NCBI GenBank assembly: GCA_014800895.1
Contig: JAAVFG010000049.1
Span: 1 to 64,000 of the forward strand
Length of the DNA: 64,000 nucleotides
Direction of reading: 5' to 3'
Source of the DNA: Bacteroidales bacterium
GTDB lineage: Bacteria > Bacteroidota > Bacteroidia > Bacteroidales > Muribaculaceae
This document shows, in pieces, positions 44,246 through 48,551 of this stretch. The position numbers were made by a program, and so were the translations under genes. The first letter of the stretch is position 1. The number at the start of each line of letters is the position of its first letter. The notes under the pieces were generated by a model. That model had not been told where the DNA came from and searched no databases. It saw only the letters and a list, made by a program, of their open reading frames with translations.

Positions 44246-45004
44246 ATGGAAGATAATATAATGAAAGTCAATCTTAGGGTATGGCGTCAGGCGAATCCTA
44301 AGGCACAGGGTGAGTTTGTGACTTACAGCAATGTCGAGACCACACCCGACACTTCATTCCTCGAGACTCTCGATATCCTTAATGAGACTCTTATCGAGAA
44401 AGGCGAGGAGCCTATCGTATTCGACCACGATTGCCGCGAGGGTATCTGCGGTATGTGTTCGCTTTACATCAATGGTCATCCTCACGGTCCTGCTACAGGT
44501 GCGACTACATGTCAGCTCTATATGCGTCGTTTCGCTGATGGCGAGACTATCACTGTAGAGCCCTGGCGTTCTGCGGCGTTCCCTGTAATCAAGGACTTGA
44601 TGGTAGACCGTAACGCATTCGATAAGATCCAGCAGGCGGGTGGCTACGTATCATTCAACTGCGGCGGTGCGCAGGATGCCAACGACCTTCCCATTGCGAA
44701 GGTTAAGGCTGATGAGGCAATGGACTCAGCAAGCTGTATCGGTTGCGGAGCATGTGTAGCTGCATGTAAGAATGGCTCAGCCATGCTCTTCGTTTCCGCT
44801 AAGATCAGCCAGCTCGCGCTTCTTCCCCAGGGAGAAGTAGAGAAAGATCGTCGTGTTCGTGCGATGGTAGCGAAGATGGATGAGCTCGGTTTCGGTAACT
44901 GTACCAACACCGGAGCTTGTGCGGCTGAGTGTCCCAAGAATATCAAGCTTGCCAACATCGGCCGCATGAACCGCATGTTCATCGCCGCTAAATGCAAGGA
45001 ATAA
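44246..45004 (+). CDS. Fumarate reductase/succinate dehydrogenase iron-sulfur subunit
   Basis: This electron-transfer subunit has three Fe-S clusters. The 252-residue protein has a 2Fe-2S motif [16 protein letters not shown] then C (near 62-95), a 4Fe-4S motif [11 protein letters not shown] (near 160-172) and a 3Fe-4S type motif with [13 protein letters not shown]. An ATG five codons downstream (44261) is an alternative start. It closes the operon; an intrinsic terminator follows 22 bases later. Confidence 0.96.
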
Positions 45005-45026
45005 GAGAAATCTGAGCTATATATAG

Positions 45027-45061
45027 AAAGCCGGGCGTCCCATCGGGAGCCCGGCTTTTTT
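45027..45061 (+). terminator. Terminator of the fumarate reductase operon
   Basis: Stem AAAGCCGGGC (45027-45036) with GCCCGGCTTT (45049-45058), then a T run to 45061. Confidence 0.9.
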
Positions 45062-45071
45062 GCTTTTTATT

Positions 45072-45270
45072 GCGGCATAGCCGCAGCGGAGACGGCTTCG
45101 CGCTGATGAAAGAGCTTTGAAATGGCGGCATAGCCGCAGCGGAAGCGGCTTCGCGCTGATAAGGAAAAGCTTCCGGATTGCGGCATAGCCGCGGCGGAAA
45201 CGGCTTCGCGCTGAAGGAGGGCATTTTTCTTTTTATTGCGGCAGAGGCGTGGCGGAAGCGGCTTCGCGAG
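45072..45270 (+). repeat. REP-like array, four units, downstream of the Y1 transposase gene
   Basis: Units of about 32 bases start at 45072, 45125, 45180 and 45239 (53-59 base period). Each has a hairpin GCGGC-AtA-GCCGC, a short purine-rich link, and the block CGGCTTCGCG. The last unit is degenerate. Spacers alternate between a GATGAAAGAGC-like and an AGCTTCCGG-like sequence. All units point the same way as those at 46316-46558. The array fills most of the gene-free gap 45005-45321. Confidence 0.85.
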
Positions 45271-45321
45271 GCAGGAGAGCTAAAGCGCGGAGCTGTTACC
45301 GATAGGGGCTCTGCCCCAAAG

Positions 45322-46290
45322 TTAGAGAGGGTGATATTCAAGATCGGCTATCTCCTTTGCAATCGAATTCATTTTTCTGCAATGCGAGTAGGAAGGACTC
45401 CCTTTCTCCCGGATATGCTCTGCTTCCTTTTCATCCGGCGGAATAAAGATAATCAATAGTCTTCCTTCTGCGCATAAATCAAACATCTTCCCTTGAGGCT
45501 TATATTTTTCAGGAAAAGGCTTGTATGTCAAATAGATTATGGAGCCTCCGTTATCTATCGCCCAATCTCTTACTTTCTTTTCAGCGGGATTGATAAATGG
45601 AGATACCAGTACCCCATCATTAAGAATGGTGATATACCATAGTTTTTTCCATCCCCTCAGTTCGGAGGGGGTATATTTTCTACTTACTTTTACCGGGACT
45701 CTTTGAAATTCCGAAAGTAAATCCCAATTCCCGTAGGCTTCGTATTTCTTATTTTTTTCGGCGTTCTCTATTATGAATTTCCTGATCCATCCCGGTTTGC
45801 TTTTCCTGAGCAGATGGCGGCGGGGATTGTCGCTGACGTATGCGAGCATTTTCTTAAGTTGGTCTTTTCCCGTAAGGAAGGTATCATGATAGCCGGGGAT
45901 GAAGAATTCAATCTCCGGCTCATGTCCCATCATTTCAAGGCTTGAAGAGCATCTTCTTTTCATCTCTCTAATAATCTCACCTAAATGTATTTCCGTGGCT
46001 TTACGGATAAAGATGACGAAATGCACATGATCCGGCATGATGCATCGCCGCAGGATGGAGATAAAGGGGAAGGAAGATTTCAGTGAGGATAATACCTTGC
46101 CTATGATTTTGCCATACGGGGATAATTCTACTATGGGCGGCCATTGTCTGTCACCGGGTATCCCTTTTACTGCGGAAAAATCCGGAATGCTGTCCGCTTT
46201 ATTAAGCACGATATGGTATATACATCTGCTTCTGTAGTCATGCCCGGGACATCTGATTCCGGCATTCGGGCGTTTTCGGGAGAATTCCAT
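45322..46290 (-). CDS. REP-associated Y1 (HUH) transposase with extra C-terminal domain
   Basis: The 322-residue protein has an N-terminal Y1 domain (about 20-175). The HUH motif His88-Val-His90 lies in IMPDHVHFVI, and the catalytic Tyr151 in YVSDNPRRHLL. The GYHDTFLTG segment is typical of RAYT proteins. Such enzymes nick single-stranded DNA and are thought to spread REP palindromes. Residues about 185-322 are an addition. The part VSPFINPAEKKVRDWAIDNG, then GSIIYLTYKPF and FDLCAEGRLLIIF, has the look of a DprA/LOG-like Rossmann half (my inference). The gene is flanked by repeat arrays on both sides. No terminal inverted repeats of an autonomous transposon were seen. Confidence 0.85.
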   Translation of the reverse strand: MEFSRKRPNAGIRCPGHDYRSRCIYHIVLNKADSIPDFSAVKGIPGDRQWPPIVELSPYGKIIGKVLSSLKSSFPFISILRRCIMPDHVHFVIFIRKATEIHLGEIIREMKRRCSSSLEMMGHEPEIEFFIPGYHDTFLTGKDQLKKMLAYVSDNPRRHLLRKSKPGWIRKFIIENAEKNKKYEAYGNWDLLSEFQRVPVKVSRKYTPSELRGWKKLWYITILNDGVLVSPFINPAEKKVRDWAIDNGGSIIYLTYKPFPEKYKPQGKMFDLCAEGRLLIIFIPPDEKEAEHIREKGSPSYSHCRKMNSIAKEIADLEYHPL

Positions 46291-46315
46291 GCTTGCTGAT
46301 TTTATTTTAATTATC

Positions 46316-46558
46316 GCGGCAGAGCCGCGGCGGGACGGCTTCGCGCGGAGAGGGGAGCTTCCGGATAGCGGCAGAGCCGCGGCGAGAACGGCTTCGCGCT
46401 AATGAAAAGCCTTCGGTAAACGGCAGAGCCGCGGCGGGAACGGCTTCGCGCGGATAGGGGAGCTTCCGGATAGCGGCAGAGCCGCAGCGGAGACAGCTTC
46501 GCGCTAATGAAAAGCCTTCGGTAAACGGCAGAGCCGCGGCGGAGACAGCTTCGCGCGG
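46316..46558 (+). repeat. REP-like array, five units, upstream of the Y1 transposase gene
   Basis: Units start at about 46316, 46368, 46420, 46473 and 46525 (52-53 base period). Each has hairpin GCGGC-AGA-GCCGC (first base A in units 3 and 5) and the block CGGCTTCGCGC (CAGCTTCGCGC in units 4 and 5). Spacers strictly alternate between AGGGGAGCTTCCGGATA and AATGAAAAGCCTTCGGTAAA, giving a higher-order repeat of about 105 bases. The array fills the gap to the lipoprotein gene at 46566. Confidence 0.9.
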
Positions 46559-46565
46559 ATTCTTA

Positions 46566-48551
46566 TCAATAGCTTATCCCGGTATTGCGACGGTTGCGTT
46601 TCTGATTGGGGTCGAAGGGATTGGCTGTGGGATCAAAGTAGTCATCATCCTCTTCCTCCTCTGTGGTGGTATCTTTCTTTCTGGAGCGCTTATCCTGAGC
46701 AGGGCGGTTCTTCTTTATAGCTTCCGGCTTCTGAAGGTCAATCGCCGTGGCAAATACATCCCAGCTCTCCTCCTTGTCCCAGTTCTTCTTTATATTGAAG
46801 GCTTTGGGATAATAATAAGCCAAGTCGGGCTGTAGCAATGTGTCATAGTCGCCGGGATCAAACTCGCCGTTGCCATTGTAATCTTCTATAACGCGGGCAT
46901 AATACTTGCCCGGCTCAAGGTACTGAAACCATACGGAATTATTCTTTACCGGCTCAGTCCTCACTATTGCATCGCTGCCATTCAGAAGCTCTACGAAAGC
47001 AGGAATCTGCGGATCCAGCCCGGTGATATTCAGGCGGAGCGAACAGTATTCATCTCTCTTCTTGATAGAGAATTCGTGTGTGAAGGGTGTTGTGGTCTGT
47101 CCATAGATACCCACAGCTGCAAGTGTGTCTGCCACGACACGGTATTTCTCTCCTAATTTCCAATCATAATCAATGATATAATCGCGGGGGGAGAGCGAAT
47201 CCTTCATGGTGATGACCGGCTGGTTGCCTACAGCTTTCCAAACAGTATCCACCATTGTCTCCAATTTGAAAGCCTTGACTTTGAGAGTGTCAAGGGGCGT
47301 GGCGAAGCGAAGATGCACCGGCAGATAGATATCATGCGTAGTGGATGACACAGCCTCAATGCCAAGAGTCAGCGCCTTCAATGAGTCAAGAGCCGCCTGG
47401 CGCTCGTCGCGCTTTTTATTGGATTTCTTCTTTGAAGCAGGCTGTCTGAACCGGAAGAAATTCAACGTATCGGTTACAGCCGCGAGATTACCGGTAGAGT
47501 CTGTGCGAAGATAACGGGTCTCCACTCTTAGTGAATCCTCTTTTATGAGCCGAGGAGGTAGCCAGAAGATAAGAGAATCATTCTTTTCTGAGCGCTCTAC
47601 CACCGCCTCCCTCATCAATCCCGGGAAACCGAGAGCATCCAGCTCCGGCAAGCCTTCGGCGCGTGTGTTGAATTTAAGGAAAAGCTTTGTGGAGTCCTGA
47701 CGCTCATATTTGCTTAGATATTGCGATCTCTTCTGCGAGTTGAAGCTTCGCAGTAGGATATCGTTGGGAAGGAAGAGTGTGCGGGAGCGATTTACGATAG
47801 TATCAATCTCTCCTGTCAAGGAATTGCGGATGGTATCAATAGCGCCGATGCGCTCGGCGGTAGGGGAGACCACAAAGTCATAGAAGGCAATATCCTCTTC
47901 CGGGTTAGCATATTTATAATCGTTATCCCGGTCACCTAAGGCATATACCCGATATTTACCTTCGGCAAGCCCGCGGATATTGAAACGTCCACGGTCGTCG
48001 GTTTTTGCCACGCGAAGAAGCGGAAGCATGGTGAAAGCGGAATCCTCGATATTCTGTGTCACTCCTACAATCATCTCCTGCTGAGGCTCGAGAGTGCGGG
48101 CATCAAGCACCATCCCCGATATCCGGAGGGTGTCGATCTGATCGCCGGTAGAGAAAGTATAAGAGAAGCCCTGCAATTTATTCGCTTCGTTATTATCCTC
48201 GATTGCATCCGCGAAGTCAACGGTATAAGTGGTATTATCAGCTAAGGAGTCAAAAGTGATGGTGATTTTTCTTCCGGAAGCCATCACTTTCGGCACACTC
48301 TTCCCGACAGGAGAGACCACAACTTTCGAAAAAGCATCTTTTACATTAACCAATTCGTTGAAGGTAAGAGTCTGCCGCGTCTTCTTGACATTAAGGCTGC
48401 CGGGGAGAGGGTCGGCAGAAACAAAAATGGGGGGATCCTCATCGCGCGGACCTCCCGAGGGATTGCCGATATTGGCACAGCCAGCCATTCCGCTAATCAT
48501 TGTCACAAAAATCAAGACAACAACAAGATATGATAAAGAAAGACGTTTCAT
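46566..48551 (-). CDS. Ig-like (Big_5/SbsA-type) domain lipoprotein
   Basis: The 661-residue protein has a lipoprotein signal with lipobox GMAGC (Cys near 25), then NIGNPSGGPRDEDPPIFVSADP, the usual start of this Bacteroidales family. The first Ig-like domain (about 35-135) contains ITITFDSLADNTTYTVDF. A carboxypeptidase-regulatory-like segment follows (GRFNIRGLAEGKYRVYALGD). The C-terminal 45 residues are charged (KKDTTTEEEEDDDYFDP). It is likely attached to the outer membrane; function unknown. The 3' end lies eight bases from the REP-like array. Confidence 0.85.
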   Translation of the reverse strand: MKRLSLSYLVVVLIFVTMISGMAGCANIGNPSGGPRDEDPPIFVSADPLPGSLNVKKTRQTLTFNELVNVKDAFSKVVVSPVGKSVPKVMASGRKITITFDSLADNTTYTVDFADAIEDNNEANKLQGFSYTFSTGDQIDTLRISGMVLDARTLEPQQEMIVGVTQNIEDSAFTMLPLLRVAKTDDRGRFNIRGLAEGKYRVYALGDRDNDYKYANPEEDIAFYDFVVSPTAERIGAIDTIRNSLTGEIDTIVNRSRTLFLPNDILLRSFNSQKRSQYLSKYERQDSTKLFLKFNTRAEGLPELDALGFPGLMREAVVERSEKNDSLIFWLPPRLIKEDSLRVETRYLRTDSTGNLAAVTDTLNFFRFRQPASKKKSNKKRDERQAALDSLKALTLGIEAVSSTTHDIYLPVHLRFATPLDTLKVKAFKLETMVDTVWKAVGNQPVITMKDSLSPRDYIIDYDWKLGEKYRVVADTLAAVGIYGQTTTPFTHEFSIKKRDEYCSLRLNITGLDPQIPAFVELLNGSDAIVRTEPVKNNSVWFQYLEPGKYYARVIEDYNGNGEFDPGDYDTLLQPDLAYYYPKAFNIKKNWDKEESWDVFATAIDLQKPEAIKKNRPAQDKRSRKKDTTTEEEEDDDYFDPTANPFDPNQKRNRRNTGISY

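Follow-up and report, generated by a model that had tools for sequence, protein, structure and literature searches.

A RAYT-like transposase with a predicted DprA-like domain and strand-biased palindromic repeats in a Muribaculaceae genome

The class 2 REP-associated tyrosine transposases (RAYTs, or TnpA_REP) of E. coli, Stenotrophomonas and Pseudomonas, which accompany repetitive extragenic palindromes (REPs) with a GTAG foot, are the best comparison for the system described here (PMC2817692, PMC6006769 and PMC8266576, each cited from excerpts). In the excerpt of PMC2817692, an inverted pair of repeats beside the gene is the rule for RAYT genes. In the excerpted classification of Quentin et al. 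(PMC6006769), the subclasses with a large distal domain (2.1 and 2.3) are without REPs, and the REP-bearing subclasses (2.2 and 2.4-2.8) have no distal domain listed. We identified a gene for a RAYT-like Y1 (HUH) transposase, with a C-terminal domain predicted to be DprA-like, in a 64,000-nucleotide stretch (the window) of contig C49 of a Bacteroidales bacterium of the Muribaculaceae (genome G000, a 2.75-Mb draft in 57 contigs). Unlike the subclasses of Quentin et al., as excerpted, the fused family has both a large distal domain and REPs. Copies of its repeat outside gene loci occur in one orientation, which nearly always follows the GC skew.

The system is a RAYT/REP (REPtron) of an unusual, variant kind, more unusual than first described. 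It shares with class 2 RAYTs the HUH fold (4ER8), the Y---NP motif, inverted flanking repeats, dispersed intergenic palindromes and a separate repeat family for each RAYT. It differs in lacking the GT[AG]G foot, in the replacement of most contact residues (W94, Q95, R104), in the large DprA-like C-terminal domain, in having about 30 copies with several stem sequences per genome, and in the skew-following orientation of the off-locus copies. The original prediction of a RAYT/REP arrangement with its own repeat family was right in outline and did not anticipate the missing foot or the DprA-like tail.

The transposase and its relatives

The gene and its parts are as follows.
45322..46290, minus strand: RAYT-like Y1 (HUH) transposase with predicted C-terminal DprA-like domain, 322 aa; stop codon 45322-45324
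45799..46290, minus strand: Y1/HUH nuclease domain, codons 1-164, with the fold of E. coli TnpA_REP (4ER8)
46021..46029, minus strand: HVH motif (H88, V89, H90); H88 and H90 invariant in 54/54 aligned proteins
45838..45840, minus strand: codon of catalytic Tyr151, in motif YVSDNP; invariant in 54/54 aligned proteins
45325..45798, minus strand: predicted DprA-like Rossmann (SMF) domain, codons 165-322, from predicted models, a sequence profile and, weakly, profile-profile comparison

The transposase tests positive for the Y1 HUH fold with HuH and Y---NP motifs, and the intact H-V-H and Tyr motifs first noted in the sequence are conserved throughout an active-site alignment of 54 of 120 listed proteins, in which the window protein stands in for its nearest copy. 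Invariance is quoted from this alignment because a larger set of 86 proteins (from 111 loci tried; some genomes appear twice) was prefiltered by length and by the presence of HUH and Y..NP motifs. The Pfam Y1_Tnp match is right at the cut-off (23 bits, E 9e-5), and that to the NCBIfam REP-associated tyrosine transposase (44.9 bits, E 1e-11) is under its cut-off of 80. Searching the PDB with the single sequence gave nothing at E<=0.1, and a full-length profile gave weak matches only, to IS200 and TnpA_REP (E 0.28-0.39). No family was matched in PADLOC at E<=1 or in PHROGs at E<=0.1. Computation shows purifying selection on the gene, and the transposase is domesticated. Its named relatives are from metagenome-assembled genomes (MAGs) of Muribaculaceae and other Bacteroidales, and RAYT-like genes are common in the genus (88 of 111 same-genus genomes).

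Residues 165-322 are predicted to have a DprA-like fold, resembling the Rossmann domain of DprA/Smf (HpDprA 4LJK, SpDprA 3UQZ) and ShosA (8ZVA). The predicted models tested positive for the DprA Rossmann fold, and DprA matches were the top 4 of 177,635 in a sequence profile search. Profile-profile comparison with 27 Bacteroidota DprA gave a probability of 8.6%, with 0.1-0.2% for an N-terminal control. The segment has the GN..LL motif of DprA/Smf, and R204 (Arg in 68 of 86 proteins) aligns with the ssDNA-binding Arg (SpDprA R115 / HpDprA R52). Unlike DprA/Smf, the domain is joined to an HUH nuclease, has no Pfam DNA_processg_A match and ends the protein. The enzyme has apparently gained a domain whose relatives bind single-stranded DNA (ssDNA) and load RecA, according to the excerpt of PMC4489622. 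Fused relatives were identified in Muribaculaceae, Prevotellaceae, an Alistipes MAG and other Bacteroidales (among the best 80 of at least 275 matches). In the open-licence literature, no report was found of a fusion of Y1_Tnp or a REP-associated tyrosine transposase with DprA, or of ShosA together with DprA.

TnpA_Y1 subclass 2.6 (RAYT group 5) is similar in occurring in Bacteroidetes, with atypical REPs that lack GTAG and have copies elsewhere in the genome (PMC6006769, in excerpt). The same excerpt gives this subclass a median length of 179 aa, the motifs NH[LIV]H, WQ and YIH[QN]NP, a HuH-Y distance of 82 and no listed distal domain; the protein described here has 322 aa, DHVH, F130 in place of W, YVSDNP, a distance of 63 and the DprA-like domain. 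The test for the foot of the GTAG-REP subclasses (2.2, 2.4, 2.5, 2.7 and 2.8) was negative: GT[AG]G was at the hairpin foot in 0 of 100 units on one strand and within 18 nt in 3 of 100 on the other. At the GTAG-contact positions (E. coli numbering, aligned by position), W94 is kept in 6 of 86 proteins and R104 in 20 of 86, and Q95 is outside the six commonest residues.

In a phylum sample of 296 genomes, with only two others from the window's order, matches at E<=1e-15 were found in six, one being the own genome with two genes. The seven matches in the other five (L234-L238, L240 and L241) cover only residues ~3-171, and their open frames are 167-202 aa long. Unlike the fused family, these Bacteroidota relatives lack the C-terminal domain; like it, several are flanked by palindromic repeats. 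Five of the six readable sequences have WQ and one has WH (L238 was unparsed), and by eye the repeats beside L235, L237, L238, L240 and L241 include GTAG next to the hairpin. Loss of the GTAG foot, replacement of the contact residues and gain of the DprA-like domain thus coincide.

The repeats at the gene and elsewhere

Repeats were located with a covariance model (R1), built from alignment A3 and trained on repeats of the window and other loci. In the window it identified the following.
45069..45105, plus strand: repeat 1 (hairpin, then AAC/GAC-N-GCTTCGCGC block), 45.8 bits
45122..45158, plus strand: repeat 2, 37.9 bits
45177..45213, plus strand: repeat 3, 49.8 bits
45235..45271, plus strand: repeat 4, with a degenerate stem, 26.5 bits
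45283..45320, minus strand: repeat 5, inverted, right after the stop codon, stem GGGGC/GCCCC, downstream partner of the pair, 39.8 bits
46313..46348, plus strand: repeat 6, upstream partner in the inverted pair, 37.1 bits
46365..46401, plus strand: repeat 7, 47 bits
46417..46453, plus strand: repeat 8, 42.3 bits
46470..46506, plus strand: repeat 9, 45.1 bits
46522..46558, plus strand: repeat 10, 40.5 bits
16409..16445, plus strand: dispersed intergenic copy with another stem, CTCGGC/GCCGAG, 47 bits
16459..16496, plus strand: second, weak copy of the 16409 cluster, 18.4 bits, E 0.0055 in the window

Ten copies therefore surround the gene, nine on the plus strand and one on the minus strand. The five upstream and four downstream repeats of the original prediction were recovered as the nine plus-strand copies; its statement that all share one orientation overlooked the minus-strand copy at 45283-45320. 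With the plus-strand copy at 46313-46348, this copy flanks the transposase in inverted orientation, an arrangement also seen by eye in many relatives. Independently of the model, the hairpin word GCGGCAKAGCCGC has 15 matches in the window at up to two mismatches (2.5 expected; none of 100 shuffles reached 15).

Flank units of close relatives have a common plan, a hairpin followed by the constant block AAC-N-GCTTCGCGC. The stems vary by locus and genome, with both arms changing together (GCGGC/GCCGC, GGGGC/GCCCC, CCGAC/GTCGG, CGGAGC/GCTCCG, CAAAAGC/GCTTTTG). When units were located by the block alone (34 loci), and thus without choosing them by their stems, 76 of 88 matches at 24 loci adjoined a perfect stem of at least 5 bp; shuffled flanks gave a mean of 3.1 and a maximum of 8. 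In the 35 rows of A3 (the 42 of A2 less 7 that have 4-nt loops or a different spacing), every row preserves the four counted pairs, with 32 double changes, and the covariation score is 0.63 (0.18 shuffled), values that overstate the pairing because the rows were picked among units already having a stem. The dispersed clusters of the own genome share a single loop type (ANA) and a single block, with at least 7 stems among them. In the flanking repeats, loop types labelled by eye in 20 rows follow the RAYT tree: six labels require five changes, the minimum, and none of 200 shuffles was that low. On the complementary strand the block GCTTCGCGC at 45069-46558 reads GCGAAGC, or GCGGAGC in relatives, both of which presumably fit the GNA mini-hairpin rule for DNA.

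In the own genome, with 150 candidates scored, 32 copies reach E<=0.01 and 36 reach E<=1; of the 32, 10 are at the gene and 22 elsewhere. The number is thus in the tens, rather than the hundreds of intergenic copies predicted. Two of the 22 are on contigs that repeat one sequence (C11 and C56), and the copies occupy about 14 separate places. The model will match the loci on which it was trained by construction; the places outside the training set are on contigs C11/C56, C14, C15, C22, C23, C37 and C38, and at C49:103014. Two relatives have 57 and 59 copies, with only 60 candidates scored, the limit for each genome in the genus survey.

Of the 111 genomes in that survey, 41 have repeat matches. 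Off-locus copies are present in 16 of 19 close-clade genomes (median 14) vs 24 of 92 others (median 0; Fisher 3e-6, Mann-Whitney 2e-8), where the close clade has a best RAYT match of at least 260 bits, a limit chosen after the flanks were seen, and shared ancestry is uncorrected. Gene-locus matches were subtracted because the training set of R1 included flank units from most close-clade genomes, so that the values with them kept in (17 of 19 vs 24 of 92, Fisher 3e-7) are in part by construction. Repeat number therefore tracks the gene, as expected from the first reading of the locus, in the sense that off-locus copies are concentrated where a close gene is present and not equally abundant in relatives without one; 24 of 92 genomes without a close gene still carry copies. 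One genome (G079) has 38 repeat matches with no close transposase found in an assembly that is 87% complete; short-read assembly may lose genes that are flanked by repeats. No report of Muribaculaceae with repetitive extragenic palindromes was found in the open-licence literature.

The transposase is beside sdhB in four species, G102 being the fourth. A survey of 30 sdhB loci, up to 1.5 kb downstream, identified gene and repeats at three (G000, G099 and G018). In G010 the site has only the gene's 3' part (residues ~204-322) and two repeats (L200, contig C20, 26494-26847). The other 26 have neither, including three on contigs that end within 400 bases. In G026, sdhB runs directly into the gene that in the window adjoins the transposase on its far side, with no gene or repeats in between.

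Orientation of the repeats relative to replication

Repeat direction (hairpin to block) was compared with the GC skew of the surrounding sequence, up to 20 kb for each repeat. We used 72 places, one match per place from the listed matches, leaving out RAYT loci and contig C11 (a duplicate of C56); they are a subset of the copies, and those in related species may be linked by common ancestry. The repeats are intergenic at 65 of the 72. Within fetched regions, matches in a locus all point one way, except at the RAYT loci L247 and L267.

In the first set, 11 of 12 places in G000 and 18 of 20 in G102 and G012 agreed with the skew (for these 32 places, 30 under narrower masking and 29 in the later count). 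Eight further genomes, for which the prediction was fixed beforehand, gave 37 of 40. We thus found no support for the bias being an artefact of the first genomes. In total, 66 of 72 places outside gene loci point with the GC skew (p 7e-14), and 62 of 72 agree when third codon positions are used. In G069, only 3 of 5 places agree by whole skew, and all 5 by third positions. Repeat strand and majority gene strand coincide at only 26 of 72 places, and transcription was therefore rejected as the cause of the bias. Around the repeats (72 regions), the majority gene strand tends to oppose the G-rich strand.

In nearly all bacteria, ribosomal operons run in the direction of replication. Of 18 regions flanking the ribosomal operon in ten genomes, 16 have the G-rich strand as its coding strand, which would make the G-rich strand leading-strand sense, and thus the lagging-strand template. 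IS608 and ISDra2 use the lagging-strand template (PMC6006769 and PMC3520747, in excerpt). Known REPs are often in inverted pairs, which hide a strand preference; here, single-orientation copies reveal a replication-linked bias. One limited search of the open-licence literature found no report of a general strand bias for REPs. Spread of REPs via ssDNA at the replication fork becomes directly testable here, in a gut-bacterial group.

The own genome encodes a second, distant RAYT (L019, contig C7, 51442-54669), whose C-terminal tail looks similar by eye and whose N-terminal part is a long reading frame of low complexity. It is flanked, in both orientations, by a repeat family of its own (GGTGTGAGGCGCTGGTGCGCC), which has 9 genome matches, 4 of them dispersed. 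All four dispersed copies obey the skew rule when the GGTTTCCG side is counted as their block.

Proposed mechanism and alternatives

We think it probable that this is a RAYT/REP variant in which an HUH transposase with a DprA-like domain recognises, nicks and rejoins single-stranded repeat units on the lagging-strand template. The recognised unit would be a hairpin with a variable stem and the loop ANA, followed 3' by the constant block CGGNAAC-RGCTTCGCGC; the enzyme may read the loop and block, sensing the stem as shape only. Nicking and rejoining of units would give direct local arrays, with occasional landings in other intergenic regions. Substrate and target would both be single-stranded lagging-strand template at the fork, as suggested by the agreement of the copies with the GC skew at nearly all places tested. 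Once a strand is nicked or excised, the DprA-like domain probably keeps hold of it and may pass it to RecA or to annealing.

Several results weigh against this reading. The copy number is modest (32), and the usual RAYT level of more than 100 per genome is not reached. Among 69 genomes whose RAYTs are all distant, 21 carry copies, as do 3 of 23 without any match, these three being identified by elimination and many of the genomes being incomplete MAGs, in which a gene not detected is not proven absent. In held-out regions, under a looser count, a perfect stem of at least 5 bp was found at only 120 of 204 block matches. Folding energies of single units as ssDNA are unexceptional (z -0.3 to -1.1), so folding energy alone does not support the hairpin; compensation supplies the support. 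Third positions calibrate the leading strand less well (12 of 18). The relatives compared at sdhB are different species, and an insertion event within one species was not seen. For the DprA-like domain, the best Foldseek match to DprA has E 0.0029, with none at E<=0.001; a profile from a widened alignment gives a DprA probability of 19% (P 0.0012); and Pfam DNA_processg_A matched 0 of 54 family members at E<=1. The polarity is also unexpected: the presumed substrate strand has the block 3' of the hairpin, and the GTAG foot of known REPs lies 5'. Either the block belongs to the cleavage or recognition site, or the other strand is acted on.

A more elaborate form of the proposal, which we regard as doubtful, is a self-contained ssDNA copy-and-paste machine. 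Here the HUH domain would nick the repeat on the lagging-strand template, the DprA-like domain would keep the strand and place it, via RecA or annealing, in single-stranded gaps on that strand, and loop and block rather than stem sequence would be read, with stems written by fold-back synthesis at the target. Such synthesis would explain locus-specific compensated stems in one orientation. It is unlikely that the repeats are instead old, silent and kept by the host, with a gene domesticated for ssDNA editing or repair and its binding sites amplified by local tandem duplication only. A single stem arm in 52 of 69 fetched regions (single-unit regions counted in), the direct arrays, the persistence beside sdhB and the low copy number are all compatible with such a history. 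It accounts poorly for copies of one loop type and one block at about 14 separate places in the own genome, or for the existence of a site without gene or repeats, and tandem duplication alone does not produce a strand bias across distant loci.

The orientation of 66 of 72 places with the GC skew would also be expected of strand-polarised chromosome signals read by host machinery, to which the transposase gene is incidental. Chi and KOPS motifs are examples of such signals. With only about 30 clustered copies, a presence in 41 of 111 genus genomes, a tie to the gene clade and a loop type that follows the transposase tree, we consider this very improbable. Transcription terminators or RNA elements, G+C-rich hairpins by chance, are less plausible again: the hairpins are mostly intergenic and several are near gene 3' ends, but the unit has no T-run, Rfam gave nothing at E<=1 for 44900-46700, and orientation does not follow that of the genes. 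Least credible is an ordinary IS200/IS605 insertion sequence with end hairpins, which belongs to the same fold class. The class 1 signature is Y---Q (PMC6006769, in excerpt) and not the Y---NP found here, the repeats are dispersed without the gene, and no second near-identical copy was found in the genome, where the one other relative has diverged and has a separate repeat family. The RAYT/REP variant is thus the reading that we prefer.

Two side observations concern other elements. Beside one unfused RAYT in another Bacteroidota genome (L236) there is a regular, CRISPR-looking array at 38-1260, with a 36-base unit and a period of ~66 bases. In G000 we identified two equal-scoring IS200-type TnpA genes (L016, C7:70189, and L017, C45:63788).
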